Part shown: piece after piece, positions 10,797-25,941 of the stretch | Layout of the letters: each line of letters opens with the position of its first letter | How positions within the stretch are numbered: position 1 is the first letter of the stretch | IMG/VR virus record: IMGVR_UViG_3300021957_005605 | Coordinates: 1 to 35,784 of that record | Length of the DNA: 35,784 nt | Origin: a virus | Direction: 5' to 3' (one strand) | Made by a program: the position numbers and the translations under genes | Notes under the pieces: generated by a model | The model's input: only the letters and a program-made list of their open reading frames with translations | Told to the model about the DNA's origin: nothing | Database searches by the model: none

Positions 10797-10941
10797 ATAT
10801 ATTTTATATGATCTTAATGAAAAGATACTAATAATTACATCTCATAAAGGTGTAGTGAAAGAAATAATGGAAGCACAGCGTGATGTTGAAAATAAACAAT
10901 CAGTATTTAAATCCAGTGATATTGATTCCGGCGAGATATGA
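10771..10941 (+). CDS. 56-residue hypothetical protein
   Basis: An ATG frame of 56 residues bridges the gap between the 10572 gene and kdsB, ending at TGA 10939-10941. The product has a basic start (LTKKRNKYILYDL), a hydrophobic strand (KILIITSHKGVV) and an acidic end. The composition is protein-like, but it overlaps kdsB by 59 bases, so I rate it as probable only. Confidence 0.5.
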   Translation: MYLTKKRNKYILYDLNEKILIITSHKGVVKEIMEAQRDVENKQSVFKSSDIDSGEI

Positions 10942-11581
10942 TTCTTCGCGCTTTCCTGGTAAACCTTTAACTCTCTTAAATAATAAACCAATGGTGTCGA
11001 TGGTATACGATAAATGTATAGCATCTGGTTTTGATGTGTTTGTAGTTACTGATAGCAGACAAGTATCTCATTGTATACCTTATAAACATGTAATATTTAC
11101 TGATGATGCTTTTAATGGTACAGAGAGATGTAAGTTAGCATTAGCAAATGAAAAATTAATGCAATATGATACTATTATTAACGTTCAAGGGGACATGCCA
11201 GACATTACTCCTGATATTATTCATTCAGTTTATAATTGTTTAAAACAAGGTTGGGATATTGCAACTGCTTATACAGAGATGCCTGAGCATCTTCTCTCTG
11301 ACCCTAATTCAGTTAAATTAATTCATAATACCTCATTTGCAAACTGGTTTGGAAGAGGAACTAATTATGGTTCTCATCATCTAGGTGTATATGGCTATAC
11401 TAGAGATATTCTCAAACATTACCCTAAAGAAGAATCTAAGCATGAGAAAATAGAAAAACTCGAGCAACTCCGTTGGCTTGATTCAGGCACAACTATTGGA
11501 GTAACTCGAGTCGATTTTAACGGTATTGAGATCAACTCTCCAGAAGATGTTGATCGATGGCATGCTAACCAATCTTCATAA
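10883..11581 (+). CDS. kdsB: CMP-KDO synthetase (3-deoxy-manno-octulosonate cytidylyltransferase)
   Basis: The 232-residue protein contains the KdsB signature series: ILIPARYDSSRFPGKPL (14-30) for CTP binding, FNGTERC, INVQGDMPDI with the metal-binding aspartate, HHLGVYGYTRDIL, EKLEQLRWLDSG and a C-terminal SPEDVDR. It transfers CMP to KDO, the activation step before KDO enters lipopolysaccharide or capsule. It is slightly shorter than the roughly 248-residue bacterial enzymes. The usual VDTPEDL is INSPEDV here, so one likely metal-binding Asp is Asn. ATG 10883 is preferred to GTG 10880. It pairs functionally with kdsA at 25159. Confidence 0.9.
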   Translation: MLKINNQYLNPVILIPARYDSSRFPGKPLTLLNNKPMVSMVYDKCIASGFDVFVVTDSRQVSHCIPYKHVIFTDDAFNGTERCKLALANEKLMQYDTIINVQGDMPDITPDIIHSVYNCLKQGWDIATAYTEMPEHLLSDPNSVKLIHNTSFANWFGRGTNYGSHHLGVYGYTRDILKHYPKEESKHEKIEKLEQLRWLDSGTTIGVTRVDFNGIEINSPEDVDRWHANQSS

Positions 11582-12047
11582 GAAACTGACCTATTCTACC
11601 TACAAACGGTAATAGAGCTAAAGCCATTATTAAATTCATTCCTGTATGTGCTACTGCTATTCGTAACGTATCCCCTTTAGGCATACCATCTGATACAAAG
11701 AATCCAGCAAGCCATATTGTTCCTGTAGTCCCTATGTTAGCTCCTAACACAGCAGCTACAGCAGCAGGTAAAGGAAGAGCTCCAGATGCTACTAATGCAA
11801 TAATTGCTGTAGTTGATAATGATGACGATTGCCATAATAAAGTCATGACTATTCCACCGATAAACATATAAATCGGATTACCTAAAAAGAATTGTAGGTG
11901 GTCCATATTACCCATTGACTTCATACCTCCTGAGAAAGTTTTGAGGCCAATATAAAAAATCACCAGTCCAACAAGAGCGGTGATTACGGGGTTTCCTAGA
12001 TCCATTTTCTTTACCTTTTTCCATAGTTTATTTGCTTTATTACTCAT
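11565..12047 (-). CDS. Na+/phosphate cotransporter family protein, single repeat
   Basis: The 160-residue membrane protein lies opposite the surrounding genes. It has about four hydrophobic helices and the PF02690 signatures LWQSSSLSTTAII (QSSS at 73-76) and LGANIGTTGT (102-108). Full NptA/YjbB transporters have two inverted copies of this unit; this one has a single copy, so it must dimerise or act as a partner. A role in phosphate import during infection is inferred. AAGAGGT precedes the start on the minus strand. It converges on kdsB with a 17-base overlap. Confidence 0.87.
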   Translation of the reverse strand: MSNKANKLWKKVKKMDLGNPVITALVGLVIFYIGLKTFSGGMKSMGNMDHLQFFLGNPIYMFIGGIVMTLLWQSSSLSTTAIIALVASGALPLPAAVAAVLGANIGTTGTIWLAGFFVSDGMPKGDTLRIAVAHTGMNLIMALALLPFVGRIGQFLMKIG

Positions 12048-12142
12048 TGATACCTCTTAAATAACCAATATAGTAATTTAGGCTGTCTAGTATATAAATT
12101 CATAAAACTTTCATATTTCTACTAACTCCTTGTAAACAAATA

Positions 12143-12192
12143 AAACCTTTTTTCACAAAACAGTTGCATTACGCCTTAGAATATACTATATT
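12143..12192 (+). promoter_or_regulatory. Early sigma70-type promoter with upstream box
   Basis: AACCTTTTTTCACAAAACAG runs into TTGCAT (12164-12169), then 17 bases and TATATT (12187-12192). The upstream stretch is almost identical to that before the 6054 promoter. AAGGAGATAT and ATG 12220 follow. The 12048-12142 stretch, which separates this from the opposite-strand transporter, shows only a possible minus-strand -10 (TATACT). Confidence 0.83.
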
Positions 12193-12219
12193 ATATGTAT
12201 AGAAAGAAGGAGATATCAA

Positions 12220-12486
12220 ATGATCAAGTCAATCTGGTGCGAAGATGTAACAATACCTGCAGAGATGAAAGCAGGCTCTCGCTTGACTTATAATTATATT
12301 TCAGGTGGAAGCTATCCTGATTATAACTTCTCTGAAGTATCATCTTTTATTGCAATTGCTGAGCAATCAGATATTGAACGTGCTGTAGAGTCTCTTTTGA
12401 CTCAAGCTGATGATCATAACCATGTCTTTATCGAAGGTTTTGATCGTAAAGAAGATGGATCATTTGAAGTCGTATTAGGTTCTTAA
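12220..12486 (+). CDS. Hypothetical phage early protein
   Basis: The 88-residue acidic protein starts MIKSIWCEDVTIPAEMKAGS. It alternates strands with an ERAVESLLTQADD helix and ends FEVVLGS. Not recognised. It is first in a promoter-led cluster with a strong ribosome-binding site (AAGGAGATAT), suggesting high early expression. Confidence 0.85.
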   Translation: MIKSIWCEDVTIPAEMKAGSRLTYNYISGGSYPDYNFSEVSSFIAIAEQSDIERAVESLLTQADDHNHVFIEGFDRKEDGSFEVVLGS

Positions 12487-12499
12487 GAGGAGATATAGA

Positions 12500-12889
12500 A
12501 TGACTGATAGTTTATATATGAATGTTAAAGATGGAATTACATATGAAGAAGCAATGAACTTTAAGTTTATTCCTGTAAGCGCTGAACAAGCTGAGTTAAT
12601 TACTAGAGCTGATCGTTCACATTTTGATAAATCTGGAATCTATAGAGTGCTTTCAGGTTCTCGTGGAGTTATCGAAGAAGTTGTTCTTCAAGAAGGTAAG
12701 CTTGAAATCTTAACTAAAGAAGAAGCTACTCAATGTATGATTGACGATGATATGGATGAAGAAGAAATCCAAGGTGCAAAAGATTATATCGAGGAGTGGT
12801 ATTATATAGATATTGATCCTGAATTTAGTGGAGCTCTTGTCTATGGTTATACCGAAGAAGATTATGATACTTTTGTACAAGTTATATAA
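12500..12889 (+). CDS. Hypothetical acidic protein
   Basis: The 129-residue, strongly acidic protein has MIDDDMDEEEIQGAKDYIEEWYYIDIDPE near its C-terminus. AGAGGAGATAT lies directly before the ATG. Acidic early proteins of this type sometimes mimic DNA or bind host factors, but nothing specific supports that here. It is coupled to the next gene by TAATG. Confidence 0.83.
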   Translation: MTDSLYMNVKDGITYEEAMNFKFIPVSAEQAELITRADRSHFDKSGIYRVLSGSRGVIEEVVLQEGKLEILTKEEATQCMIDDDMDEEEIQGAKDYIEEWYYIDIDPEFSGALVYGYTEEDYDTFVQVI

Positions 12890-13101
12890 TGTCAAAGTAT
12901 GATAATCGTCATGGAGGTCCTTATGATCGAGGAGGAGCAGACAGCTATTATCGTCGTGGTTTGAGACCTCATTACTTTGTAGGTGATACATATCGATCTG
13001 AAGCTGTTATGGAAGATGGTATGACATCTGAAGAAATAGAAGCTTACCTTGCCGGTTACGATGATAACGAAAAAATAGGAAATTATAAAGATTATGGTTA
13101 A
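12889..13101 (+). CDS. Conserved phage protein starting MSKYDNRHGGPYDRG
   Basis: The 70-residue protein has a distinctive N-terminal motif (RHGGPYDRGGADSYYRRG, then PHYF) that I recall in many marine phage genomes. A MTSEEIEAYLAGYDD helix follows. It may be a small nucleic-acid- or protein-binding factor; function is unknown. It is coupled to both neighbours by short overlaps. Confidence 0.8.
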   Translation: MSKYDNRHGGPYDRGGADSYYRRGLRPHYFVGDTYRSEAVMEDGMTSEEIEAYLAGYDDNEKIGNYKDYG

Positions 13102-13291
13102 AACTGTACACTATGTTGGATTTAGAGGAGATGAGTACGTTCGTGCTCATCGCATCTTTGGTAGTCCTGCAATGATTCATAAAGTGTACGACACTCGAGT
13201 ATTTACTGAAGTAGGTCATGATGATGTAGTTATTTTCGGGCCTAAGTATAAGTATTCAGAATATGTATGGGACGCTAGTGGGGACTGCTAA
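13094..13291 (+). CDS. Hypothetical small protein
   Basis: The protein has 65 residues, mainly beta strands (VHYVGFRGDEYVRAHRIFG, then DVVIFGPKYKYSEY) and a C-terminal cysteine. No family recognised. The ATG overlaps the previous gene by 8 bases, and its stop overlaps the next ATG. Confidence 0.75.
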   Translation: MVKTVHYVGFRGDEYVRAHRIFGSPAMIHKVYDTRVFTEVGHDDVVIFGPKYKYSEYVWDASGDC

Positions 13292-13509
13292 TGGAAGTAG
13301 TTTTTTTCGTTTTAATATTTTTTATCGGCGCTGTTGTATTTTTTACCTGGAGTGAATTGCAAGGCGTCGATAAAGTTATGTGGCAAAAAGATACTGAGAT
13401 GAAACAAAAAGTCCGTAAGCTTGAGTCTGATATTGTAGATTTAAATCGTACTATCAGTGAATTAAAACATGAACTAGCAGAAAGTGAGAAAGAAGATGAA
13501 CAGCTTTGA
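13291..13509 (+). CDS. Membrane-anchored coiled-coil protein
   Basis: The 72-residue protein has an N-terminal membrane helix (residues 3-19, VVFFVLIFFIGAVVFF) followed by a coiled coil (RKLESDIVDLNRTISELKHELAESE). This plan resembles inner-membrane spanins, but no outer-membrane partner is adjacent. I leave it as a membrane-tethered coiled coil. Confidence 0.75.
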   Translation: MEVVFFVLIFFIGAVVFFTWSELQGVDKVMWQKDTEMKQKVRKLESDIVDLNRTISELKHELAESEKEDEQL

Positions 13510-13657
13510 AAATTTGGTAATGGAAGATATCTTAAAATGGAAATCACAAAAAGGAATCGATTTTGTTGCTGTTAAAGATTTAATTGAAGCTTATTGGAAG
13601 GATTATTTTAATGGACAGCGGCTTGTTGGAAATGAGAATTTTGAATGCATCGGATAA
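13496..13657 (+). CDS. 53-residue hypothetical protein
   Basis: A frame from ATG 13496 to TAA 13655-13657 encodes MNSFENLVMEDILKWKSQKG followed by a VKDLIEAYWKDYFNG helix. It overlaps the coiled-coil gene by 14 bases and the next by 47. It has natural composition and fills the gap, so it is probably real. Confidence 0.6.
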   Translation: MNSFENLVMEDILKWKSQKGIDFVAVKDLIEAYWKDYFNGQRLVGNENFECIG

Positions 13658-13766
13658 GGCTGCTGAAGCTCGATATCGCGTAGTAGAGTTAGAGAAAACT
13701 GTAAGTGAGCTTTGTAAAAAAGTTTCTGAACTAGAAAAAGCTTTGAAAGATAATAATGCAGCTTAA
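13611..13766 (+). CDS. Short coiled-coil protein
   Basis: The 51-residue protein has a clear heptad pattern (VVELEKTVSELCKKVSELEKAL, read as consecutive short heptads near residues 26-47). The frame extends upstream to a TTG at 13584, but GGAAGG before ATG 13611 favours the shorter form. It may pair with the coiled coil of the 13291 protein. Confidence 0.65.
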   Translation: MDSGLLEMRILNASDKAAEARYRVVELEKTVSELCKKVSELEKALKDNNAA

Positions 13767-14394
13767 TCATTTACATGAACACCAGCATATGTATTTTTAT
13801 TACTGGGGCCCTCTACTTTGTAGAATTGATATAGATGAGAATCTGTATAATTTTATATCATCTTGTGTAAATAAACCTCAACAAGAAAATAATAGGTTTA
13901 AACATAACGTAGATAAGTTAGAAAGAGAGTATGAACTGACCGGTAATGAGAAAATAACATTTAACGAATTATTTTCTCCTTATATCACAAAATATGTTGA
14001 AGCACATAATAAAACATGGCAACCTTATGCTAAACCGGTTAAAGATGAATTTGTATGTGCTAATGCATGGATAAACTTTCAAGGAAATAACGAAAGCAGA
14101 TCTCTTCACACTCACGTAGATAGCGATTTATCATTTGTAATATACTATGATATTCCTGATATTTTAATGAAAGAAGCCTCACTAGCTGAAACTGATGTTG
14201 TTCCTGGAGCTATCACTTTTTATAACGAATTACCTAAACCTCCTGAACCTCTATTTAAAAATATTAAATTAATTTCTCATATGCCTAAAATAAAAGAAGC
14301 ATTTATATTCCCAAGTTCTCTTCCTCACATGGTTAACTCATTTAAATCTGAATGTACAAGAATATCAATTGCAGGTAATTATATAAGGAAATAG
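13756..14394 (+). CDS. 2OG-Fe(II) oxygenase (4 of 7)
   Basis: The 212-residue protein has a helical N-terminal half. The core then follows: AWINFQG, SLHTHVDSDLSFVIYYDIP with HxD (H120, D122), PGAITFYNELP, EAFIFPSSLPHMVNSF (H191) and TRISIAGNY (R202). This matches the phage 2OG oxygenase type seen again at 23041, from which it differs mainly in loop lengths. The substrate is unknown. It overlaps the coiled-coil gene by 11 bases. Confidence 0.87.
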   Translation: MQLNHLHEHQHMYFYYWGPLLCRIDIDENLYNFISSCVNKPQQENNRFKHNVDKLEREYELTGNEKITFNELFSPYITKYVEAHNKTWQPYAKPVKDEFVCANAWINFQGNNESRSLHTHVDSDLSFVIYYDIPDILMKEASLAETDVVPGAITFYNELPKPPEPLFKNIKLISHMPKIKEAFIFPSSLPHMVNSFKSECTRISIAGNYIRK

Positions 14395-14396
14395 AA

Positions 14397-14597
14397 ATGT
14401 GGGTACTAATATGGTTAGCAATGGGGAACAGTGCGAATATTGAATATTTTCATGTCGATAGTTATGATAATAAAGATAAATGTATATCAGCTATGAAAAA
14501 TGCATCTGTTTTAGTTACTAATAAAAATCAAACTATAGATTGTTTATGGGTTTCAGGTTTAAGGACCGCACCAATAGAAAAAGGAGTGCTTGATTAA
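14397..14597 (+). CDS. Hypothetical small protein, possible export signal
   Basis: The 66-residue protein has a short hydrophobic start (MWVLIWLAMGNSA) and then a soluble region with two cysteines (KCISAMKNAS, IDCLW). The cysteines could form a disulfide if it is exported. No family recognised; coupled to the next gene by TAATG. Confidence 0.7.
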   Translation: MWVLIWLAMGNSANIEYFHVDSYDNKDKCISAMKNASVLVTNKNQTIDCLWVSGLRTAPIEKGVLD

Positions 14598-14830
14598 TGA
14601 GTGATGATGATTATGAGACTGAAGAGTTATATGATAAAGTTATAGGTATCGCAGGAGAGCTTTGTGCTAAGCATCCTGGATTGGCTGTTGCTGCAGTGCT
14701 TAATACTGTATCTTTAACTCTATATAAAACTATTCTTACTCCTGAAGAGTATGAAAATATGATGGCTACTATTGATAGTAATACACATAGAATTAAACCA
14801 TTGATTAAAACTGAACAGAGAGTGCATTAA
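14597..14830 (+). CDS. Hypothetical small helical protein
   Basis: The 77-residue protein has an acidic start (MSDDDYETEELYDKV) and a central alanine-rich helix (HPGLAVAAVLNTVSLTLYKTIL). It is probably soluble and helical. Function unknown. It precedes the PEP carboxykinase gene by 17 bases. Confidence 0.72.
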   Translation: MSDDDYETEELYDKVIGIAGELCAKHPGLAVAAVLNTVSLTLYKTILTPEEYENMMATIDSNTHRIKPLIKTEQRVH

Positions 14831-14847
14831 CTCTCTTGGAGTGACTT

Positions 14848-16041
14848 ATGCCAAATATTACGATAACGACTAGCCCGTCTGGTCGTAGTCCTGAGAATAA
14901 ATATTTTTTCGGTAATCGAACTCGAAAGTTAGACTTATCTCGTCCAAAATATAACAAGATTGGAAGTGAAGTAGACTTTTGGGAATTCTATGAAGATATG
15001 ATTGATCAAGAGTACCACCATTATCTTGTGTTCTATTCTGCTGGTAGATGTTTTAGCGTTGAGACTAATGATGACCGGCATGCGCAGTTTGTTCGTAATA
15101 TGTTTAATGTGATAGATGATGATCCTTTGCATGATTATGCAGATTGGAAGATCATTCATAATACATTACTTGATGTTGAACCAACCATATATGTTCACTT
15201 AGATGAAAAGATTATGTTAATTAGTGGTACAACATTCTTAGGTGAAATCAAAAAGGGTGTGTTTGGTATTCTTGGATTTGAACTGCCAGAAGAAGACAAA
15301 CTACCAATGCACTGTGCAGCATTCACATATAAAGATACAACCAATCTAATGTTTGGTTTGAGCGGAACAGGAAAGACAACTCTGTCTAGTGATCCAGATT
15401 ATAAACTAATTAGTGATGATGAAGTCTACTGGCACAGCGATGGAATTGGTATGATCGAAACTGGTTGCTATGCTAAGTCAGAAGGTCTGTCACCAGAAAC
15501 TCATAAGACTATTTTTGATGCTGTTGAATTAGCTAAGAGTAAAGATACTCTAGTAGTTGAGAATCCAGGTGCACCTAATGCTAGATTAAGCTATCCTATA
15601 AATTGTGTAGAGAATGCTTATCATACTTCTCAGCAATTCAACCATCCAGATAATATATTCTTTCTTACTATGGATGCTAAAGGCGTCTTTCCTGCTGTTA
15701 GTAAGATAAGCGGTGAGACAGTCCGTAAGTTTTTTGAAACCGGATACACAAGTCAGATGCCAGGAACAGAAGCGGGAACTGATGTAATAAAGCCATTATT
15801 TAGTCCATGTTATGGATCTCCATTTATGCCCAGACAGGTAAAAGAATACAGTGATATGCTCATGCAGAAAGTAGAGCAAGTTGATTGTAATGTTTATCTA
15901 ATCAATACAGGAATGGATAAGGATGGAAAAAGATATCCTCTAGAATATACCCGACAATGTATCAAAGACGCTATTCAAAAAACAAGTACAGATGAAAGCG
16001 AAACAGTTCTTGGTATATTAGAGGGTCTAATTAATGCGTGA
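14848..16041 (+). CDS. pckA: ATP-type phosphoenolpyruvate carboxykinase, trimmed at both ends
   Basis: The 397-residue protein aligns with the catalytic core of bacterial ATP-dependent PEPCK, which converts oxaloacetate and ATP to PEP, CO2 and ADP. It has SGRSPENKY (R13), LGEIKKGVFG (K135/136), MHCAAF (H155), the kinase P-loop FGLSGTGKTTLSSDP (169-183), LISDDEVYW (D190/D191), ARLSYPI (R246) and NTGMDKDGKRYPLEYTR. All main catalytic residues are kept. It lacks about 60 N-terminal and 70 C-terminal residues of the usual ~540. GGAG precedes the ATG. Phage-borne PEPCK is very unusual; with kdsA it suggests PEP supply. Confidence 0.93.
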   Translation: MPNITITTSPSGRSPENKYFFGNRTRKLDLSRPKYNKIGSEVDFWEFYEDMIDQEYHHYLVFYSAGRCFSVETNDDRHAQFVRNMFNVIDDDPLHDYADWKIIHNTLLDVEPTIYVHLDEKIMLISGTTFLGEIKKGVFGILGFELPEEDKLPMHCAAFTYKDTTNLMFGLSGTGKTTLSSDPDYKLISDDEVYWHSDGIGMIETGCYAKSEGLSPETHKTIFDAVELAKSKDTLVVENPGAPNARLSYPINCVENAYHTSQQFNHPDNIFFLTMDAKGVFPAVSKISGETVRKFFETGYTSQMPGTEAGTDVIKPLFSPCYGSPFMPRQVKEYSDMLMQKVEQVDCNVYLINTGMDKDGKRYPLEYTRQCIKDAIQKTSTDESETVLGILEGLINA

Positions 16042-16156
16042 GATGACTCTTGAACAACTTAGAAAAATTCTTACTGATAACAATATTGAGTACTATGTTA
16101 CTAGTAGCGATAATGGAATTGTAAAAATTAACTTTTTGGTGAAAGATGAAGTTTAA
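16034..16156 (+). CDS. 40-residue hypothetical protein
   Basis: A short frame starts at ATG 16034 inside the end of pckA and stops at TAA 16154-16156, overlapping the next gene by 11 bases. The product (MREMTLEQLRKILTDNN, then YYVTSSDNGIVKINFLVKDEV) looks like a helix followed by two strands. It exactly fills the interval between two genes, so translation is likely. Confidence 0.6.
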   Translation: MREMTLEQLRKILTDNNIEYYVTSSDNGIVKINFLVKDEV

Positions 16157-16586
16157 AAATAAAATATATCTTGATTATTCTGATGTCCTTTCAATGTGTC
16201 ATAACCTTGAAGATATTGCATCTAAATTAAAACCTGATCTAATTGTAGGAATTGTTAGAGGGGGACTGCTCCCTGCTCTTCATTTGTCTCATGCTTTAGA
16301 ACGTCCTATGGAAACAGTAACATGGCAAACTAGAGATGAATCTCGTCAGCAGTATTGTGACATTATTCAACAAGCAATTGATACAGGAAAGACAGTATTA
16401 TTTGTAGATGATATTAACGATACAGGACGAACGTTTAAAGATCTAGCAAAAGCATATAATACTAATACTAAACCCGATGTACATTTTATCTCATTAGTAG
16501 AGAAGACAGCTTCAAATTTCTTTGGTACAGCTGCACTAACTTTAGACGATCCAAGATGGATTGTATTTCCATGGGAAAAAGATTAA
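16146..16586 (+). CDS. Type I phosphoribosyltransferase
   Basis: The 146-residue protein has the PRPP-binding signature VLFVDDINDTGRT (84-96) and an earlier PDLIVGIVRGGLLPALHLSH (30-49) loop typical of purine phosphoribosyltransferases of the xanthine-guanine or hypoxanthine type. It would salvage purine bases by coupling them to PRPP. The exact base specificity cannot be told from the sequence. It lies directly downstream of pckA. Confidence 0.87.
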   Translation: MKFKNKIYLDYSDVLSMCHNLEDIASKLKPDLIVGIVRGGLLPALHLSHALERPMETVTWQTRDESRQQYCDIIQQAIDTGKTVLFVDDINDTGRTFKDLAKAYNTNTKPDVHFISLVEKTASNFFGTAALTLDDPRWIVFPWEKD

Positions 16587-16619
16587 TGAATAAGAAAATT
16601 ATAAAGAAAGATAAGGAAG

Positions 16620-16964
16620 ATGAATAAATGGATTTTAACACTATTCTTAGCTTTAGCACCTCTATCGGTTAACGCTCAAGACCAAACAAAATGGTACCCG
16701 TTTTCTTTTCCATGCGGACCATATGAACCTCTACTAAAATTACTAGCAAAGCAACAAGAGTTTCTTTTATTTACCTCTGTGGGACAAGTCTTTGGAGTTG
16801 ATGGGAAAGTTTATCGTGGTGTAACGATGTTATTTACTAATCAAGACACTGGTAACTGGACATATATTATAAGATGGAATGAAGGGTCTGCATGCATGCT
16901 TTCAACAGGTTCAAACTTCAGACCTTATGATGGAGTTATTCCAGATATTAAGAAAGATCTGTAA
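16620..16964 (+). CDS. Exported protein of unknown function
   Basis: The 114-residue protein has a clean signal peptide (MNKWILTLFLALAPLSVNA, cleavage after residue 19). The mature part is strand-rich with two cysteines (FPCGPYEPLL and SACML) that could pair in the periplasm. AAGGAAG precedes the ATG. The family is unknown to me. It is one of four exported proteins in this window. Confidence 0.8.
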   Translation: MNKWILTLFLALAPLSVNAQDQTKWYPFSFPCGPYEPLLKLLAKQQEFLLFTSVGQVFGVDGKVYRGVTMLFTNQDTGNWTYIIRWNEGSACMLSTGSNFRPYDGVIPDIKKDL

Positions 16965-17296
16965 TGAAATATGTAATTGATATTGATGGAACCATATGCG
17001 AAGAAATTATCTTAGCAGATGGGAAGAAAGATTATGCTAATCATATTCCTGATATGAAGCGAATAAGAAAAGTAAATCGATTATTTGATCTAGGTCATAC
17101 GATTAAGTATATGACTGCTAGAGGGTGTGTAAGTGGTATTGACTATTATGATTTAACTAAGAAGCAATTAGATGATTGGGGATGTAAGTATCATGAGCTT
17201 AGCGTAGGAGAAAAAGAGAACTACGATGTATGGATAGATGATAAAGCATTCTGGTCAGAGAACTTCTTTAGAGAGACAGGAGCATCATATGAGTGA
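16964..17296 (+). CDS. HAD phosphatase, capsule-biosynthesis type
   Basis: The 110-residue protein has HAD motif I YVIDIDGTICEE (D6, D8), motif II HTIKYMTARGC and the late YDVWIDDKAFW. The DYYDLTKKQLDDWGCKYHEL segment resembles small phosphatases found in capsular-polysaccharide clusters. It could supply the KDO-8-phosphate phosphatase step that is otherwise missing between KdsA and KdsB here. That is an inference from context; the sequence is not a recognisable KdsC. It is coupled to the upstream gene by TAATG. Confidence 0.82.
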   Translation: MKYVIDIDGTICEEIILADGKKDYANHIPDMKRIRKVNRLFDLGHTIKYMTARGCVSGIDYYDLTKKQLDDWGCKYHELSVGEKENYDVWIDDKAFWSENFFRETGASYE

Positions 17297-17441
17297 AAAC
17301 TATTGCACGACAAAAGGTCTAGGTTGGGCCTTCTTAATTATTATTATTGGAATGGCAGGCCTGCCTATTCTTGGGTCAGCAATCGCTTATCCGGATAACT
17401 GTAAACAATCAATTCTCATTCCTTGTCTGGGATTAGAATAA
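17289..17441 (+). CDS. 50-residue membrane protein
   Basis: The protein starts at ATG 17289 after CAGGAG, overlapping the HAD gene by 8 bases. It has one membrane helix (GWAFLIIIIGMAGLPILGSAIAY, split near the proline) and a C-terminal segment with two cysteines. The frame extends further upstream, but that part lies inside the HAD gene. Function unknown. Confidence 0.72.
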   Translation: MSENYCTTKGLGWAFLIIIIGMAGLPILGSAIAYPDNCKQSILIPCLGLE

Positions 17442-18229
17442 TGAATAAGTTTATTGCTGCAATGGATCATAGCGGAGGTTCTACTGGAGGAGTCCTAGAG
17501 AGATACGGGCAACAGTATACAGAAGATAATAAGATGGACTTGGTCCATGAGATGCGTCTTCGTATGGTTAACTCTCCTGATTTTACTAGAGATAATATCT
17601 GGGCTGCGATACTATACAAAGATACTATCGATAAAGGTATGGTTCCTGTTCTAAAGAATAAAGGAATAGAAGTTATCTGTAAGATTGACTCAGGTTGTGA
17701 AGAGGATGGTACTCTAAAAGACTTTGATATTGATGCAATGATTCAGTATTCAGTAAGTAATGGCTGCTATGGTACTAAGATGAGAAGTATTGTAAAGACA
17801 GAAAATATTATGATTCCTCTACTAAAACAACAATTCGAATTAGCAAAAGAAATAGCATCTATAGGTCTTGTTCCGATCATTGAACCAGAAGTTCCTATTG
17901 ATCATCCTAATAAAGCAAATATCGAATCCTGGTTATTAGAATATCTTAAAATACTATTAAGAGATTTTAGTTCGCATTGCATACTTAAATTAACACTCCC
18001 TGAGGTGCCAAACTTATATAAAGAATTAGATAGTGAATGGGTAAAACTAGTTGGTCTCAGTGGAGGGTATACAACGAAAGAAGCATGCAGTCGTCTTGCT
18101 GTTAACGATAATATGACAGCAAGCTTTTCTAGGGCGCTTAGCGAAGGACTATATATTAGTCAGAGTGATAAAGAATTTAACCAAAAAATATCTGATAATA
18201 TCAGAGAAATAAACAAAGCAGGGATGTAA
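17441..18229 (+). CDS. Class I fructose-bisphosphate aldolase
   Basis: The 262-residue protein matches the short bacterial class I aldolases (Staphylococcus FdaB type). It has FIAAMDHSGGSTGGVLERYG at the start, GTKMRS (111-116), PIIEPEV (145-151), ILKLTLPEVPNLYKEL with the likely Schiff-base lysine K183, the phosphate-binding LSGGYTTKEA and ASFSRALSEGL. The enzyme interconverts fructose-1,6-bisphosphate with dihydroxyacetone phosphate and glyceraldehyde-3-phosphate, without metal. It is about 30 residues shorter than cellular forms, mostly in loops and the first helix. ATG 17441 overlaps the previous stop. Confidence 0.9.
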   Translation: MNKFIAAMDHSGGSTGGVLERYGQQYTEDNKMDLVHEMRLRMVNSPDFTRDNIWAAILYKDTIDKGMVPVLKNKGIEVICKIDSGCEEDGTLKDFDIDAMIQYSVSNGCYGTKMRSIVKTENIMIPLLKQQFELAKEIASIGLVPIIEPEVPIDHPNKANIESWLLEYLKILLRDFSSHCILKLTLPEVPNLYKELDSEWVKLVGLSGGYTTKEACSRLAVNDNMTASFSRALSEGLYISQSDKEFNQKISDNIREINKAGM

Positions 18230-18585
18230 TGATACTAAGAACAGCATTTATTTTAAGTCTATTAGCCTCACCTTTATTTGCAAATGACAAAGCTTTTAAG
18301 AAATGTAAAGCCTGTCACAGTATAGAAGAAGGTGCGAAGAATGGTACTGGTCCGAACCTATGGAACATAATGAATCGCGGTACAGGTGTCAACGAAGACT
18401 ACAAGTATAGCAAGAAGTTTCTAAAATGGGCTGAAGAGAATCCTGTATGGACTGTAGAGTTGATGGATCAATGGCTTACAAATAGTAAGAAGACAGTGAA
18501 AGGCACTAAGATGAATTACAGAGAAAAGAAAGAGAATAAACGTGCAGAAATTATTGAATATCTTCAAAGCATGGGTGAAGAATAA
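18229..18585 (+). CDS. Periplasmic class I cytochrome c
   Basis: The 118-residue protein has a signal peptide (residues 1-18), then the haem-binding CKACH (26-30), TGPNLWNI and VKGTKMNY with the likely distal ligand Met95. A C-terminal helix (RAEIIEYLQSM) closes the class I cytochrome c fold. It should be exported, receive haem from the host Ccm system and shuttle electrons in the periplasm. It follows the aldolase gene with a TAATG junction. Sequence features suggest a functional carrier, not a remnant. Confidence 0.93.
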   Translation: MILRTAFILSLLASPLFANDKAFKKCKACHSIEEGAKNGTGPNLWNIMNRGTGVNEDYKYSKKFLKWAEENPVWTVELMDQWLTNSKKTVKGTKMNYREKKENKRAEIIEYLQSMGEE

Positions 18586-19147: not shown

Positions 19148-19148
19148 A

Positions 19149-19757: not shown

Positions 19758-19767
19758 AAAGAAGAAA

Positions 19768-20263: not shown

Positions 20264-20299
20264 CATCGTGTAGATGTTAAAGAAAAAAAATACTAACCT

Positions 20300-20353
20300 A
20301 TTGATAACTAACGAAACCTTTTAGTTGCACTATGTCTCATAAGATACGATAAT
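20300..20353 (+). promoter_or_regulatory. Early sigma70-type promoter with upstream box
   Basis: The box TATTGATAACTAACGAAACC (20300-20319) differs at only two positions from that at 6019. TTTTAG then leads to TTGCAC (20325-20330), 17 bases and GATAAT (20348-20353). A GAGGAGATATACATT ribosome-binding site and ATG 20381 follow. Confidence 0.83.
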
Positions 20354-20380
20354 AAGTTATCAAATGAGGAGATATACATT

Positions 20381-20716
20381 ATGAAAGTTACAGTATTCCA
20401 TAAAGACTTCGAAGATAACAGCTTCACTCGCGTTGCAGTAGTTAATGTTCCAGAGACATATGCTGACGATGATTCAGCTGCTCTTGAGTATGCTTATCGT
20501 TATACTAATAATGTAGTAGGTAGCTGGTCTATGAAGATTGGTGGCGATGCTAACGATAATGTAGAAGTAACTGCTCCTCTTCATGTAACAGATGATGGCC
20601 GTACTATGGGTCTTCGTTCTTCTATGATGGGTGATCGCTTCTATGTTGAAGGTGGTGATGCTTATGAGTGTGCGATGCTTGGGTTCGAGGCTCTTCCAGT
20701 ATTGGAGGATGTATAA
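20381..20716 (+). CDS. Hypothetical early phage protein
   Basis: The 111-residue acidic protein has strands with VTVFHKDFEDNSFTRVAVV, a DDDSAALEYAYRYTNNV helix and later RFYVEGGDAYECAMLGF. Not recognised. It has two promoters and a strong ribosome-binding site in front, so it is probably abundantly expressed early. Its stop overlaps the next ATG. Confidence 0.85.
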   Translation: MKVTVFHKDFEDNSFTRVAVVNVPETYADDDSAALEYAYRYTNNVVGSWSMKIGGDANDNVEVTAPLHVTDDGRTMGLRSSMMGDRFYVEGGDAYECAMLGFEALPVLEDV

Positions 20717-20799
20717 TGGGTGCGCTAGTAGGTTGTGCATTGTTCTTTATCGTATTAGTTGTAGTAACAGCAGTCGTTGAGGGCTTCTTTATAAAATGA
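20716..20799 (+). CDS. 27-residue membrane peptide
   Basis: A tiny frame starts at ATG 20716 (TAATG with the previous stop) and ends at TGA 20797-20799. It encodes a single hydrophobic helix (ALFFIVLVVVTAVVEGFF, residues 8-25). It is linked by ATGA overlaps to further tiny genes, a pattern unlikely by chance. Confidence 0.6.
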   Translation: MGALVGCALFFIVLVVVTAVVEGFFIK

Positions 20800-20927
20800 A
20801 ATGGTTCTTTCTTGGCATGCTGGTAATGGCTCTTATGGACCATACCGGCTTTATGTCTGGTACGTATCTAATAGAGCTCATACAGAGCATCATACTAGCA
20901 ATAGCGAATTGGGTAACAACATTATAA
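20796..20927 (+). CDS. 43-residue membrane peptide
   Basis: ATG 20796 overlaps the preceding stop, and TAA 20925-20927 overlaps the next ATG. The product (MKWFFLGMLVMALMDHTG, then YLIELIQSIILAIANWV) has two hydrophobic stretches. A longer frame in another register (from 20801) covers the same DNA but reads as nonsense before 20927. Confidence 0.6.
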   Translation: MKWFFLGMLVMALMDHTGFMSGTYLIELIQSIILAIANWVTTL

Positions 20928-21079
20928 TGGATGATAATATGACAGATGAGCAGTTGATTAAAGAGTGGCTTGAGAAGAACGAAGTGACAGAGTGTGAACC
21001 GTTCGAGCGTACTTGTCCTGAACAGCTGGTGTGGAAGCGTACTAAAGGTACTAAGAAGCAACAGAAGAAGAAGTCCTGA
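20927..21079 (+). CDS. 50-residue charged protein
   Basis: Starting at ATG 20927 (TAATG), the protein reads MDDNMTDEQLIKEWLEKNEV, a short cysteine-containing middle (ECEPFERTC) and a lysine-rich tail (KKQQKKKS). I recall similar small 'MTDEQ.I..WL.KN' proteins in T4-like marine phages. The upstream extension of this frame to 20801 is rejected in favour of the membrane peptide. Confidence 0.65.
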   Translation: MDDNMTDEQLIKEWLEKNEVTECEPFERTCPEQLVWKRTKGTKKQQKKKS

Positions 21080-21233
21080 AAGAGGCCGCGTATAAAAAAG
21101 TTTCTAGAGAGAGAACCATATACGGGGGGCGATACGCAAAGCTGTCTCTAGTGAGTTTACTTCCCCTATATAAAACGAAACCAAAAGCCGCAGAGAAAAT
21201 TTGCGCGCGGAAAAATAGGAGTTTACCATCCCC
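21080..21233 (+). ncRNA. Structured non-coding stretch, candidate RNA
   Basis: No gene fits here. CTAGAGA (21104-21110) can pair with TCTCTAG (21145-21151), and GCGTAT (21088-21093) with ATACGC (21132-21137). A G-run (GGGGGGCGA) lies between them, and later CCGC/GCGG and a GCGCGCGG block occur. The GC-rich patches contrast with the AT-rich surroundings. TAGGAG before ATG 21234 may be exposed or hidden by this structure. It might be a leader or a stable small RNA; I recognise no known class. Confidence 0.35.
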
Positions 21234-21440
21234 ATGTTTTTAGAGTTATACGTCGATTGGCCAATGGTACTATTTTATACTGTAGGTACTATATTTGGCC
21301 TCTGGGTAGGTCGTAAGATGAAGAGTGATGAAGTTGTAGAGAATACAATTGACTATCTCATAGAGAATAAACTGGTGCGCTGGAAACAAGATGAAAATGG
21401 TGAAATAGAGTTGTTGCAGATAGATGATAAAAGTATTTGA
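21234..21440 (+). CDS. Small membrane protein
   Basis: The 68-residue protein has one membrane helix (about residues 9-25, MVLFYTVGTIFGLWVG) followed by a charged cytoplasmic part (RKMKSDEVVENTIDYLIENKLV). Function unknown. GGAG lies a rather long 14 bases before the ATG. It overlaps the next oxygenase by 17 bases. Confidence 0.72.
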   Translation: MFLELYVDWPMVLFYTVGTIFGLWVGRKMKSDEVVENTIDYLIENKLVRWKQDENGEIELLQIDDKSI

Positions 21441-21993
21441 AAACTTACTATCAGCTGAGCTTGCTGATGAGATTGAGAATGAGCTTCTTGGTGGCTCTCA
21501 TGAATGGTATTTAATGGGTAATGTGACATATGATGATGTACCAGGAGTAGATGATGTACAAGCTGGCTTCAATCATTCACATATTCAATATAGTCAAGTA
21601 ACTTCCAAAAGAGTATTTCGCTATCTAACTATTCCTTATACAGTAATTGCTAAATTAGATATTAGTGTGTCTAATATAACTCATGGCAGAGCATGGTTGC
21701 ATTATCCATCTCTTAAACCTGGTACATTTAATAGTATGCATAATGATCAGACCGAACCACATATATCAATTATATACTATGTAAATGATTCAGATGGTGA
21801 TACTATATTCTTTGATAAAGAGGATAGAGAAACTATCATACACAGGCAGACACCTAAAAAGAATACTGCAGTAATATTCTCTGGTGATATACCGCATTGT
21901 TCTTCTACGCCGTCTAAATGGAGAAGTGTATTTAATTTTGTTATAGAGCCTGTAGATTGGCAAAAAGAAGTGCAGAAACTAGTTGCCTTATGA
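21424..21993 (+). CDS. 2OG-Fe(II) oxygenase, prolyl-4-hydroxylase type (6 of 7)
   Basis: The 189-residue protein has an N-terminal VFENLLSAELADEIEN helix typical of this class. The core is SMHNDQTEPHISIIYYVN with HxD (H106, D108), DGDTIFFDKED, TPKKNTAVIFSGDIPHCSS (H158) and KWRSVFNFVIE (R167). It resembles small phage P4H-like enzymes. The substrate is unknown. The last bases of the gene contain the next promoter. Confidence 0.87.
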   Translation: MIKVFENLLSAELADEIENELLGGSHEWYLMGNVTYDDVPGVDDVQAGFNHSHIQYSQVTSKRVFRYLTIPYTVIAKLDISVSNITHGRAWLHYPSLKPGTFNSMHNDQTEPHISIIYYVNDSDGDTIFFDKEDRETIIHRQTPKKNTAVIFSGDIPHCSSTPSKWRSVFNFVIEPVDWQKEVQKLVAL

Positions 21994-22011
21994 TTGAAAA
22001 GTTCCGATAAT
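21983..22011 (+). promoter_or_regulatory. Early sigma70-type promoter
   Basis: AGTTGCCTTATG contains TTGCCT (21983-21988), then 17 bases and GATAAT (22006-22011). It overlaps the end of the oxygenase gene. An alternative pair, TTGAAA (21994-21999) with TATAGT (22017-22022), also has a 17-base gap. GTGAGGAGACTATATT and ATG 22041 follow. Confidence 0.75.
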
Positions 22012-22040
22012 ATTATTATAGTAAGTGAGGAGACTATATT

Positions 22041-22682
22041 ATGATATATGCAACTTCGGATAGACCTTATGTAGAGAAGTGTAGAGCTCTTGGTTGGGAT
22101 GATGATACTACTCAGAAGTATCTAAATTATCGTACTAAACGTTCTAGTACTATTCGTAGAGGTCGTACTGCATTTAAAGATTCTAACCAATCTAAGGTAT
22201 ATAAGTCTGAATACAAATATCATAAGACTCACGGTTATGGTCAGAAGTATAAGACTATCGAAGAATGTGAGAAGTATGTAAAGCGTATTACTAAGTCCAA
22301 GCTGTGGGCCGAGCTTTGTGGTGGTGATCGTAAAGTCATTACAGTAGCTAGTTTTAGAGCGCGCCGCTGGGCTGGAATGGCTTACGGCAGTCATATTAAC
22401 CTCTCTGTATCTGGTTATAATCAATACGTAATACTTCATGAGCTTGCTCACTGTTGCGGTAACATGCATCATGATGTGTCTTTCCGCCGAGACTTAGTGA
22501 GACTAATCTCTCGCTTTCTAGGACGCGAACAAGCTAAGCATCTTAAGCAGTGTTTTCTTAGCGACGGTCTTAAGATGACTATTAAGTCTACTGTTAAGGA
22601 GCCTGAAGTATGGCTCGCTTCATTTAATAAAATGGCCGCTATGCGGCGCAAGTTGCCTTCGGCAAGTACTGATAATGTTTAA
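22041..22682 (+). CDS. Zincin metalloprotein, TIGR04338/SprT-like
   Basis: The 213-residue basic protein has KDSNQSKVYKSEY (46-58), like the start of TIGR04338 proteins. It then has the zinc motif VILHELAHCCGNMHHD (130-145) with H133, E134, H137 and probably H143 or H144. The protease-like motif is complete, but the biological target is unknown. The many arginines and lysines suggest DNA or RNA contact, as in SprT-like proteases. It has a strong ribosome-binding site and a promoter directly upstream. Confidence 0.8.
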   Translation: MIYATSDRPYVEKCRALGWDDDTTQKYLNYRTKRSSTIRRGRTAFKDSNQSKVYKSEYKYHKTHGYGQKYKTIEECEKYVKRITKSKLWAELCGGDRKVITVASFRARRWAGMAYGSHINLSVSGYNQYVILHELAHCCGNMHHDVSFRRDLVRLISRFLGREQAKHLKQCFLSDGLKMTIKSTVKEPEVWLASFNKMAAMRRKLPSASTDNV

Positions 22683-22887
22683 TATTGAATATAAAGAAGT
22701 AGAAACCATTACGTATGGTGATACTAAGTATCGCTTGGTAGAGTCTGAAAACGGTAAGCGTGTTATTCAATTGTATAGTAATCTCTCTAAGCGATGGAAT
22801 GTTACTATTAGATATAATGTTGAACGTGAATGGAATAGGATGAAAAAGCTCTATGAAAGTATGGCAAAGCGACGTAATCAAAACTAG
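22675..22887 (+). CDS. Hypothetical small protein
   Basis: The 70-residue basic protein has strands (YKEVETITYGDTKYRLVESE, GKRVIQLY) and a charged C-terminal helix. Overlaps on both sides mark it as part of the 22041 operon. No function recognised. Confidence 0.72.
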   Translation: MFNIEYKEVETITYGDTKYRLVESENGKRVIQLYSNLSKRWNVTIRYNVEREWNRMKKLYESMAKRRNQN

Positions 22888-23044
22888 GAAGCATTGGGCG
22901 GTTGGTACTATATGGAATGTCTTATCGTCTAATAAGAAAGACTCTTATGATATTGAGATGGTTGACAAAGGCTTTACGTGTAGTTGTCCTGCGTTTCGAA
23001 AATGTAAGCATATAAAAGAAGTAGAAGAGAGATTTGCTATATGA
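22853..23044 (+). CDS. SWIM-type zinc-finger protein
   Basis: The 63-residue protein carries a SWIM motif: FTCSCPAFRKCKHIKEV (41-57), with C43, C45, C51 and H53 as zinc ligands. SWIM fingers bind nucleic acid or proteins. The preceding strands (WAVGTIWNV, YDIEMVDKG) fit the usual SWIM fold. It overlaps the previous gene by 35 bases and the next oxygenase by 4. It may work with the zincin two genes upstream. Confidence 0.8.
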   Translation: MKVWQSDVIKTRKHWAVGTIWNVLSSNKKDSYDIEMVDKGFTCSCPAFRKCKHIKEVEERFAI

Positions 23045-23721
23045 GCATAGTTCCAATAAAAAATTTAGGTGCTAGTATTGGTCGCACTACTCTTGATGAT
23101 AGTTTGATTGAAGATCTTATACAGCATTCGGAAAACTTACATAGAAGAGCTAATGGGTCTCTAGCTGGTAAAATTGAAGACGAAAAATTTTATGAAGAAG
23201 AAAGTAGAGCATACTTCGAGAAACAATTATTAACTTATGCTGTTAACTTTTATGATGAGTGTGAAAAAGATAAAGGTTTTGTAGTTGATATAGAATTAAA
23301 AAAAATGGCTCAGTGGAGATTAGACGCTCTATGGGTTAATAGACAAGAACCTGGCGAGTATAATCCTATACATGAGCATTCTGGTAATATCTCATTTGTT
23401 ATATACTTGCAAATACCTCACGGTATGTATGAAGAGGTAAATCCAACAAACGGTAGCCCTCCAGGATCTATTTCTTTTCGCTACGGCTCAGATAATAGAA
23501 TGTATCCAGCATGGCCTGGAACGGATGGGAAGCTTTCTGAAAGATATGTAATATCGGAATTAGAAACGCCGTTGCGACCATTAACTAATCTTGAGCTTAA
23601 ACCAGAAGTAGGAGAAATGTTTATCTTTCCTTCTTTTTTAGCACACAGTGTAGAAGCTTTTTACAGTCCGGGAACAAGAATATCTGTTTCTGGTAATTTT
23701 AGTTTAGATTTTATAAAATGA
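23041..23721 (+). CDS. 2OG-Fe(II) oxygenase (7 of 7)
   Basis: The 226-residue protein has a helical N-terminal half. The core follows: LDALWVNRQ, NPIHEHSGNISFVIYLQIP (H111/H113), PGSISFRYGSDNR, VGEMFIFPSFLAHSVEAF (H202) and TRISVSGNF (R213). It is the same type as the 13756 protein, sharing the SFVIY-IP strand and TRIS.-.GN end. The substrate is unknown. It is followed directly by a sulfotransferase gene, with a 4-base overlap. Confidence 0.87.
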   Translation: MSIVPIKNLGASIGRTTLDDSLIEDLIQHSENLHRRANGSLAGKIEDEKFYEEESRAYFEKQLLTYAVNFYDECEKDKGFVVDIELKKMAQWRLDALWVNRQEPGEYNPIHEHSGNISFVIYLQIPHGMYEEVNPTNGSPPGSISFRYGSDNRMYPAWPGTDGKLSERYVISELETPLRPLTNLELKPEVGEMFIFPSFLAHSVEAFYSPGTRISVSGNFSLDFIK

Positions 23722-24395
23722 ATGATTTAATATTATTTCCAAGCTTGCCAAGATCAGGCTCTACTCTTTTATCTAGTATACTGAATCAACATCCACAAGT
23801 GTATGTTACCCAGACGTCAAATTTTGTTGATGTATTATGGAAAAATAATTCATGCTGGGAAAGTAATACACCTGAATCTAATGTAAGTTATTTTACAAAT
23901 ATAAAAGATGACTATTTAAAACAAATAACTAATTTATATTTTTCTCACTATACAGATAAAGATATAATTGTGGATAAAAGCCGTTATTGGTTTAATCTCA
24001 ATAATTTACATATGTACTATACAGTGTATGGAAAATATCCTAAAATAATTTGCACTGTAAGAGATAGAGATGAAATAATTAACTCGTTTATTAATGTAGC
24101 ACAAAAGAGTCTTATTACTTTTAATGGACATCATCAAAGAAATTTAATAGATAAATTTTATAATGAGTATCAACAAATTAAAAAAACTCATTTTAAAGAC
24201 TGTTTTCACTATATTGAATATAATTCGATTGTAGATGATACTGATAGTGTAATGAAACAGCTTTGTAAATATTTAGAAATATCAGATTTTAAATTTGATT
24301 ATAATAATGTTGAATCTAATTTAGAAGCAGAGTTAGATAGTATGATAGGATTTAAAAATTTACATTATGTTCGTAATGAGATAAAAAGGAGATAA
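23718..24395 (+). CDS. PAPS-type sulfotransferase family protein
   Basis: The 225-residue protein starts LILFPSLPRSGSTLLSSIL, with the PAPS 5'-phosphosulfate loop PRSGST (11-16). It later has KIICTVRDRDEIINSFI, the 3'-phosphate-binding segment. These two motifs and the length fit soluble sulfotransferases, which move sulfate from PAPS to sugars, lipids or proteins. The DNA is very AT-rich, and no PAPS-synthesis genes are seen here. It is coupled to an oxygenase, so a shared substrate is possible. Confidence 0.83.
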   Translation: MNDLILFPSLPRSGSTLLSSILNQHPQVYVTQTSNFVDVLWKNNSCWESNTPESNVSYFTNIKDDYLKQITNLYFSHYTDKDIIVDKSRYWFNLNNLHMYYTVYGKYPKIICTVRDRDEIINSFINVAQKSLITFNGHHQRNLIDKFYNEYQQIKKTHFKDCFHYIEYNSIVDDTDSVMKQLCKYLEISDFKFDYNNVESNLEAELDSMIGFKNLHYVRNEIKRR

Positions 24396-24397
24396 TA

Positions 24398-24691
24398 ATG
24401 GCTAAACGAGGAGAGCTAAAACCTGTAGATGCAGATGAGTACCGTATTCGCTCTAATGCGAAGTATTATACTGTAGTTGGATTTAGACCTGGAGAAGGTA
24501 GAAAGCTTTTTCAGACGTTTGAGAATTTATTATGGGCTAAAGAATATTGTAAGGAGCTGTTACGTGATGGTTCTTTACGTCTTCGTGCTACAATGATATA
24601 TGCTGTCGATGAATATGATCGTAATGCATTAGTTGGTACTATGAACTTAGATGAAATTTGGAAAGATGTGGAGGTTAAACGTTATGCGTGA
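24398..24691 (+). CDS. Hypothetical phage protein
   Basis: The 97-residue basic protein starts MAKRGELKPVDADEYRIRS and contains a KEYCKELLRDGSLRLRATMIYAVDEYDR segment suggestive of a mixed alpha-beta domain. AAAAGGAG precedes the ATG. Function not recognised. It overlaps the next gene by 8 bases. Confidence 0.78.
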   Translation: MAKRGELKPVDADEYRIRSNAKYYTVVGFRPGEGRKLFQTFENLLWAKEYCKELLRDGSLRLRATMIYAVDEYDRNALVGTMNLDEIWKDVEVKRYA

Positions 24692-24944
24692 AGAGCTAAT
24701 TACTAAATTAAAGGAAAATGTTTGTGTAGTTTCTTTCAAGAAGAAAGATGGAACTAATCGTAATATGAAATGCACTCTTAAAGAGAGTGTTGTTCCAAAA
24801 GCAACTAAAGAAGATCCTTTATCACAAAAAAAGATTCGTGCTTTAAATGAAGAAGTAGTCCCTGTATGGGATGTTGAGAAAGAAGGTTGGCGTTCTTTTA
24901 GAGTTGATTCAGTTATAACAATTGGTATTTGTACTGAAGCATGA
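24684..24944 (+). CDS. DUF2693-like small phage protein
   Basis: The 86-residue protein has CVVSFKKKDGTNRNMKCTL (15-33) and VVPVWDVEKEGWRSFRVDSV near the C-terminus. The fold looks like a small beta-barrel of the DUF2693 type, common in T4-like phages. Function unknown. GGAGG before ATG 24684 selects this start over the upstream extension to 24651. Confidence 0.8.
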   Translation: MREELITKLKENVCVVSFKKKDGTNRNMKCTLKESVVPKATKEDPLSQKKIRALNEEVVPVWDVEKEGWRSFRVDSVITIGICTEA

Positions 24945-25162
24945 CTCAGGAGCGTTATTATACGTATATGTTACGGAGGTATAAAGAGCATATGAAAGAA
25001 CTTAGAGAAGATCGTATGGATGAAAAAAAGCTTAACGTTGCTATCCATCATTATGCAGAAACTCATAGTATGACAAATGAACAAGTACATAATATGATTC
25101 AAGAAAGTGCAGCAGCTAAGCAACTAGTAATTAATTACTATTGGGAAAAATTTACTTTATGA
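24941..25162 (+). CDS. Hypothetical small protein
   Basis: The 73-residue protein is helical and basic at the start (YYTYMLRRYKEHMKELREDR) with a later NEQVHNMIQESAAAKQLV helix. It overlaps its upstream neighbour by ATGA and kdsA by 4 bases. No function recognised. Confidence 0.72.
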   Translation: MTQERYYTYMLRRYKEHMKELREDRMDEKKLNVAIHHYAETHSMTNEQVHNMIQESAAAKQLVINYYWEKFTL

Positions 25163-25941
25163 GAATTATTGCTGGTCCATGTCAACATGAATCACTTGAG
25201 CAGTCATTAGAGATTGCTCGAGTATGTAAATGGGTTTGTGATCAATACGGCTTTGAATATATTTTTAAAGCATCATTCGATAAAGCTAATCGTACTTCTA
25301 TGAACGGTATTAGAGGTGCTGGACTTATTAATACACTAAACGACTTTAGAAGATTAAAAGATGCAATACCAAATCTTAAAATTCTTACAGATGTACATGA
25401 TGTAGACCAAATTGAAAAGTTAGAGATGGATGAATTCTGTGGCTTAGTAGATGTATTACAAATTCCAGCTTTCTTATGCCGGCAAACAGATCTTATTCGC
25501 AAAGCTTGCGAGACTGATTGTATTGTTAATATTAAGAAAGGCCAGTTTCTTGCACCATGGGACATAAAAGGTATATTATCTAAAACAGAAGGTGCTAAAG
25601 AAGTATGGATAACTGAAAGAGGAACTAGTTTTGGTTATAATAATCTTGTTGTCGATTTTAATGGTTTGCAGTACATGCTTGATAACTATAGCGTTCCGAT
25701 TGTATTTGATGCAACACACTCGTGCCAGAAACCTGGTGGAAGCGGTGAAAGTTCAGGTGGCAATCGTGCTTGGGTCCCAGGGCTCACTCGTGCTGCTTCT
25801 GCTTTGGGCATATCTAACTTCTTCTTAGAAGTGCATCCAGATCCAGATAACGCACCCAGTGATGGTCCTAATATGATTAAGTTAGAAAATTTTCAATCAG
25901 TAATAGATAGTATAGATAGGTTTAAAAATGAAAGCAGGTAA
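25159..25941 (+). CDS. kdsA: KDO-8-phosphate synthase, metal-dependent type
   Basis: The 260-residue protein condenses PEP with arabinose-5-phosphate to KDO-8-phosphate, the first committed step to KDO. The family motifs are complete: IIAGPCQHES (3-12), FKASFDKANRTS, LTDVH, IPAFLCRQTDL, KKGQFLAPWD, TERGTSFGYNNLVVDF, DATHSCQKPGG and FFLEVHPDPD then SDGPN. Cys8 in AGPC, with the later His, Glu and Asp, indicates the metal-dependent class, which in E. coli-type enzymes has Asn instead. The N-terminal hairpin of cellular enzymes is missing. ATG 25159 is supported by an ATGA overlap. Confidence 0.95.
   Translation: MRIIAGPCQHESLEQSLEIARVCKWVCDQYGFEYIFKASFDKANRTSMNGIRGAGLINTLNDFRRLKDAIPNLKILTDVHDVDQIEKLEMDEFCGLVDVLQIPAFLCRQTDLIRKACETDCIVNIKKGQFLAPWDIKGILSKTEGAKEVWITERGTSFGYNNLVVDFNGLQYMLDNYSVPIVFDATHSCQKPGGSGESSGGNRAWVPGLTRAASALGISNFFLEVHPDPDNAPSDGPNMIKLENFQSVIDSIDRFKNESR

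Follow-up and report, generated by a model that had tools for sequence, protein, structure and literature searches.

What does a phage gain from carrying, within some 15 kb, the genes for an activated keto-sugar together with those of gluconeogenesis? The question is raised by the IMG/VR virus record IMGVR_UViG_3300021957_005605, a virus fragment of 35,784 bp (G+C 34%) that was analysed at its full length and is called the window here. An original prediction read from its genes a split route from phosphoenolpyruvate (PEP) to the CMP-activated form of 3-deoxy-octulosonic acid (CMP-KDO), in which KdsA and KdsB are the synthetic enzymes and a PEP carboxykinase (PEPCK) is the source of PEP. We find that the genes concerned form two separable modules, KdsA-KdsB-cupin and PEPCK-aldolase-HAD phosphatase, the second joined by GAPDH in some relatives, and that both are present in the window (Table 1). 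The evidence supports a PEP-to-KDO link as one form taken by a broader toolkit that runs from gluconeogenesis to sugars, and not as the sole purpose of PEPCK.

The KdsA protein passes the curated NCBIfam model of 3-deoxy-8-phosphooctulonate (KDO8P) synthase (NF003543, 325 bits against a cut-off of 242), scores just below the cut-off of TIGR01362 (313 against 314 bits), also matches PF00793, and is matched by KDO8P synthases in the PDB at E 5e-74. The metal-type Cys and the KANR, KKGQF, ERG, DATHS and HPDP signatures are all present. Moreover, the 12 catalytic, metal and substrate positions that we checked (Lys, Asn and Arg; Cys, His, Glu and Asp) are invariant in the viral set, Cys8 in all 76 sequences with a letter at that position and the other 11 in all 77 rows. 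By both the curated model and the residues the protein is predicted to be a KDO8P synthase, and the complete motif set first described for it is confirmed.

For KdsB, a complete motif set had likewise been described, of which the homologue itself stands and the completeness does not. The protein matches PF02348 (79 bits) and KdsB structures in the PDB (E 8e-25), and stays below the curated cut-offs (159 against 193 bits for NF003952; 106 against 155 for TIGR00466). Of the two aspartates expected to bind magnesium in a CMP-KDO synthetase, the first is kept; in place of the second, which belongs to the VDTPED motif, the protein has Asn when aligned with KpsU and E. coli KdsB. This residue, Asn218 when numbered from position 10883, aligns to position 225 of KpsU and to D219 of the A. 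aeolicus enzyme, in whose structure D219 and D95 are the strictly conserved Mg-A ligands (PMC3149649).

The same exchange runs through the viral family. The second magnesium-binding position is Asn in 60/60 distinct viral homologues and Asp in 61/65 cellular ones with a letter there, and the first magnesium-binding Asp and the other KdsB motifs are invariant in the 60 viral sequences. These form a clade with 100/100 support and a long stem, which includes three rows from metagenome-assembled genomes (MAGs). Among the four cellular exceptions, L259 is a real outlier and the other three (L256-L258) fall into the viral clade. The three come from MAG contigs labelled Neomarinimicrobiota and Euryarchaeota and carry phage-type KdsB; in L256 and L257 phage-type kdsA and cupin genes adjoin it, and the contigs are therefore probably of phage origin and were binned with bacteria or archaea.

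The third enzyme of the predicted route, PEPCK, retains the motifs ascribed to it. It matches PF01293 with 301 bits (cut-off 26.5) and the full-length NCBIfam model TIGR00224 with 255 bits, below the cut-off of 590, a shortfall that fits a compact, divergent branch: the window protein has 397 residues against about 540 in E. coli, its C-terminal end being missing or shorter, and 61 viral homologues span 393-410 residues. The P-loop, the metal ligands and the substrate Arg are invariant among them, and the position of E. coli Tyr207 is Phe in all viral copies. Close by, just downstream of the HAD gene, lies a class I fructose-bisphosphate aldolase that had been overlooked. It scores 233 bits with PRK05377 (below the cut-off of 392) and 24.5 bits with PF00274 (against 22.2), matches PDB 2iqt at E 5e-44, and has a candidate Schiff-base residue, Lys183, that is invariant in 69 sequences.

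The small HAD phosphatase, which had been counted with the KDO genes and offered as a replacement for KdsC, is present with its Asp motifs, but it keeps other company. Of 44 aldolase clusters, 24 have it within 1.5 kb of the aldolase, whereas just 3 of 62 kdsA clusters have it near kdsA. No NCBIfam model matches it, the KdsC model TIGR01670 included. Its best match in both fold and profile is AfhF of phage HY126 (PDB 9iqw), a D-arabinose 1,5-diphosphate phosphatase that is likewise a small HAD protein, with 35% identity when the folds are aligned and a profile match of E 7e-13 that covers residues 17-101 only. Because AfhF is the closest relative and the aldolase the neighbour, a sugar-bisphosphatase acting in gluconeogenesis or pentose supply suits this protein better than a KDO8P phosphatase. 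We therefore rejected the KdsC replacement as the leading idea, and the protein is probably not a KdsC; that it might instead make arabinose-5-phosphate is an attractive possibility.

The cupin, originally suggested to stand in for a missing step as well, does belong with the KDO genes, accompanying kdsA in 48 of 63 viral neighbourhoods. Its His35, His37 and His82 are invariant and its model is RmlC-like (confidence score pLDDT 88). As a candidate isomerase it is less specific, since its fold is about as close to KdgF as to archaeal phosphomannose isomerase and to lyxose isomerase, and it is unrelated to the SIS domain of KdsD. Nor is the cupin exclusive to KDO genes, because other PEPCK loci have the order aldolase-cupin-PEPCK-phosphomannomutase with no kdsA nearby.

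The division into modules emerges from a scan of 2.9 million viral contigs, which yielded at least 225 relatives of KdsA, at least 103 of PEPCK and at least 110 of the aldolase; all of them are fragmentary records, picked for their similarity to the window, and the co-occurrence frequencies given here are not unbiased. In the first module, kdsB is found in 50 of 63 distinct kdsA neighbourhoods, within 1.5 kb of kdsA in 51 of 62 clusters, and in 19 of the 20 large kdsA records. In the second, PEPCK lies within 1.5 kb of the aldolase in 11 of the 44 clusters and GAPDH in 7. Phosphomannomutase, which had also been overlooked and which lies within 1.5 kb of pckA in 8/35 clusters and of kdsA in 5/62, is an accessory member of the sugar modules, and genes for UDP-sugar dehydrogenase, epimerase and DegT aminotransferase occur in the same kinds of neighbourhood.

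Where the two modules meet, they do so tightly. Ten of the 35 PEPCK clusters contain kdsA, in all ten within 1.5 kb and in eight with a gap of at most 5 bp. By our own estimate, random placement of kdsA in a stretch of some 14 kb would bring all ten to within 1.5 kb with a probability of the order of 1e-7. The order kdsA-pckA-kdsB-cupin is found in four contigs (L014, L021, L146 and L156), and GAPDH-HAD-aldolase-kdsA-pckA in a fifth (L018, with GAPDH at 2446-3408). The window is the exception to this adjacency: PEPCK, HAD and aldolase are near neighbours, kdsB precedes PEPCK by about 3 kb and kdsA follows it by about 9 kb, so that the modules are spread over 15 kb. In the relatives pckA adjoins kdsA, kdsB or both, and PEP supply and KDO synthesis are therefore linked in a real sense.

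Both sets of genes are under purifying selection. Pairwise non-synonymous divergence (dN) is 0.11 against a synonymous divergence (dS) of 0.93 for KdsA and 0.07 against 1.08 for the cupin, is far below dS for phosphomannomutase, and is below a saturated dS for KdsB, PEPCK, the HAD and the aldolase. With dN below dS, these are maintained genes and not decaying cargo.

From the genes, their active sites (intact except in KdsB), this selection and the conserved neighbourhoods we infer enzyme activities, direction of flux, timing and use of the product, and consider it reasonably probable that the two modules raise the supply of a CMP-activated keto-sugar and drive gluconeogenesis in the infected cell. 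Both would be expressed during infection, as we presume. KdsA would couple PEP with arabinose-5-phosphate from the host, the phosphate would be removed by the host KdsC or, less likely, by the phage HAD, and the KdsB-like enzyme would activate the sugar with CTP for a transferase of the host or an unrecognised one of the phage, so that the KdsA, KdsB-like and cupin module would yield more CMP-activated keto-sugar, most likely CMP-KDO. The module of PEPCK, class I aldolase and small HAD, with GAPDH in some relatives, would push host carbon up gluconeogenesis, and its output of PEP and of hexose and pentose phosphates would provide the ultimate precursors of both KdsA substrates, of other sugars and of nucleotides. 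Remodelling of the cell surface, the purpose originally proposed, perhaps with exclusion of superinfecting phages, may be what the product serves.

Several observations weigh against this reading. PEPCK and KdsA are found apart more often than together, kdsA being present in 5 of 23 PEPCK records and in 1 of the 8 that reach 80 kb, while the 20 kdsA records of at least 55 kb include none with PEPCK. KdsD (the SIS-domain isomerase) and KdsC (TIGR01670) were each found in 0/35 related records, and no KDO transferase of the WaaA or KpsC/S type scored above cut-off in the same 35; the lack of an arabinose-5-phosphate isomerase and of a clear KdsC, already remarked in the window, thus holds among its relatives. 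The host must therefore supply arabinose-5-phosphate and a transferase, and probably a phosphatase. Asn at a catalytic metal ligand throughout the viral KdsB family makes the predicted product of that enzyme uncertain. Finally, a PRPP (phosphoribosyl pyrophosphate) synthetase gene is a neighbour of the aldolase or of PEPCK in 11 loci, a sign that these enzymes may also help to supply nucleotides.

This last point belongs to a broader alternative, in which PEPCK and the aldolase serve nucleotide and energy metabolism, such as ribose for DNA synthesis, without any special connection to KDO, and the fused operons reflect only shared timing of expression. It would explain why kdsA is absent from most PEPCK and aldolase records and why PRPP synthetase and a phosphoribosyltransferase family lie near the aldolase. 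We nevertheless regard it as rather unlikely, given that in related loci kdsA, wherever it is within reach of pckA, is adjacent to it (10 of 10 clusters), and that several phages have pckA placed precisely between the two kds genes. What these data do change is the role of PEPCK. Since most PEPCK records are without kdsA and the large kdsA records are without PEPCK, the enzyme is not mainly a feeder of KdsA and belongs first to the gluconeogenic module. Of the originally predicted phage route, the operons of relatives thus uphold the link from PEP to KDO, but not PEPCK as an enzyme dedicated to it.

The remaining alternatives turn on the Asn of KdsB. The viral enzyme could activate a sugar other than KDO, giving a different CMP-sugar, perhaps for decoration of the phage or the cell surface, with the cupin modifying that sugar. 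The invariant Asn at the Mg-A ligand, the well-separated clade, the very conserved cupin at so many kdsA genes and the lack of recognisable KDO transferases in the same records are what one would expect in that case, but the active site of KdsA is fully canonical and every relative of the KdsB-like protein with a solved structure is a KDO cytidylyltransferase, and we judge a non-KDO product improbable. In GlmU, Asn serves as a metal ligand at a comparable site, so that Asn in KdsB need mean neither a changed substrate nor lost activity. That the protein is catalytically dead or regulatory, and that only KdsA and KDO-8-phosphate matter, we hold to be highly improbable: a strictly conserved Asp is indeed lost (PMC3149649), but the remaining motifs, the first Asp among them, are kept throughout the viral set and non-synonymous change is well below synonymous. 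A bolder reading, also unlikely in our view though not to the same degree, is that a family of marine phages carries a portable operon leading from central carbon (PEPCK, GAPDH, aldolase) to an activated keto-sugar, in which a phage-specific Asp-to-Asn class of KdsB makes a CMP-sugar that the host does not. We retain CMP-KDO as the likeliest product.

Single genes of these modules are already known in phages. kdsA and kdsB have been described as marine viral auxiliary metabolic genes (PMC10653327), and in one T4-like genome from the environment KdsA is accompanied by an aceBA operon (PMC5332604). Synechococcus phage S-SCSM2R (PQ898602), like the window, has marine-phage KdsA and KdsB, there side by side, its KdsA being only 41% identical to that of the window. 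For such marine viral kdsA/kdsB systems, a linkage to PEPCK or aldolase was not found described in the papers searched. A study of viromes from hadal trench sediment lists pckA and fructose-bisphosphate aldolase among viral metabolic genes (PMC12448302); in the passages found they appear singly, and neither the compact family nor an operon with GAPDH, HAD or kdsA appears. Pelagimyophages, marine myophages of alphaproteobacteria, carry lipopolysaccharide genes in clusters of two or three, and their description (PMC7029224) mentions neither KDO, kds genes, carboxykinase nor aldolase. Neither the fused operon nor the Asn-type KdsB clade is described in the papers searched, which covered few subscription journals, and both look new. 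Phage metabolic genes are usually listed singly; here, the entry enzymes of gluconeogenesis are linked to the synthesis of sugar nucleotides by neighbourhoods that recur in dozens of viral groups, which yields a pathway-level hypothesis of how marine phages redirect carbon, and one near-diagnostic residue makes the question of which sugar they activate a testable one.

Table 1. Positions of the sugar-module genes and of other features in the window.
Feature	Position	Strand	Remarks
KdsB-like CMP-KDO synthetase	10883-11581	+	compact; Asn for second catalytic Asp (EINSPED)
PEPCK, ATP-type	14848-16041	+	compact, 397 aa; PF01293
Small HAD phosphatase	16964-17296	+	HAD Asp motifs present
Class I fructose-bisphosphate aldolase	17441-18229	+	ATG start; listed open reading frame from TTG 17423
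KdsA, metal-type KDO8P synthase	25159-25941	+	ATG 25159; listed open reading frame begins at TTG 25141
Metal cupin of the KDO module	25928-26275	+	highly conserved; RmlC-like
Phosphomannomutase, eukaryotic-type (HAD-IIB)	8454-9182	+	PF03332, 95 bits
2-oxoglutarate-Fe(II) oxygenases, at least three	1236-1817, 4290-4895, 23041-23721	+	
Na+/phosphate-cotransporter domain gene, short	11565-12047	-	PF02690; adjoins kdsB
Cytochrome c, small	18229-18585	+	PF00034; directly after aldolase
Sulfotransferase	23718-24395		
Tryptophan halogenase family protein	29021-30535	+	370 bits
Permuted tmRNA, alphaproteobacterial type	31207-31545	+	tag ANDNFAPSGYALAA
Nucleotidyltransferase (HldE C-terminal-like) fused to cupin	32772-33551	+	TIGR02199 70 bits, PF01050 67 bits, both partial

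The window is phage DNA, being an IMG/VR virus record that carries a T4-type gp32 single-strand-binding protein (PF08804, 163 bits), a PhoH gene and an exonuclease-family gene, and it is part of a T4-like marine phage. Over positions 635 to about 20,000 its proteins are near-identical to those of a 75-kb viral contig (L082/L087), which ends there; the DNA polymerase of that contig was taken as a gauge of the background of kdsA in T4-like phages, for which the contigs were mostly too short. The alphaproteobacterial type of the permuted transfer-messenger RNA (tmRNA) suggests that the host is perhaps an alphaproteobacterium, with no close match to it and only short ones, in 164 of 385 alphaproteobacterial genomes, and assignment of a host by this RNA was dropped for that reason. 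An ATP-type PEPCK was found in only 1 of 60 sampled genomes of the family of SAR11 strain HIMB114 (G071); if the host belonged to this family, the phage would therefore add a PEPCK that it lacks. Among the other genes of the window, the fusion of an HldE-like nucleotidyltransferase to a cupin is a possible further nucleotide-sugar enzyme.

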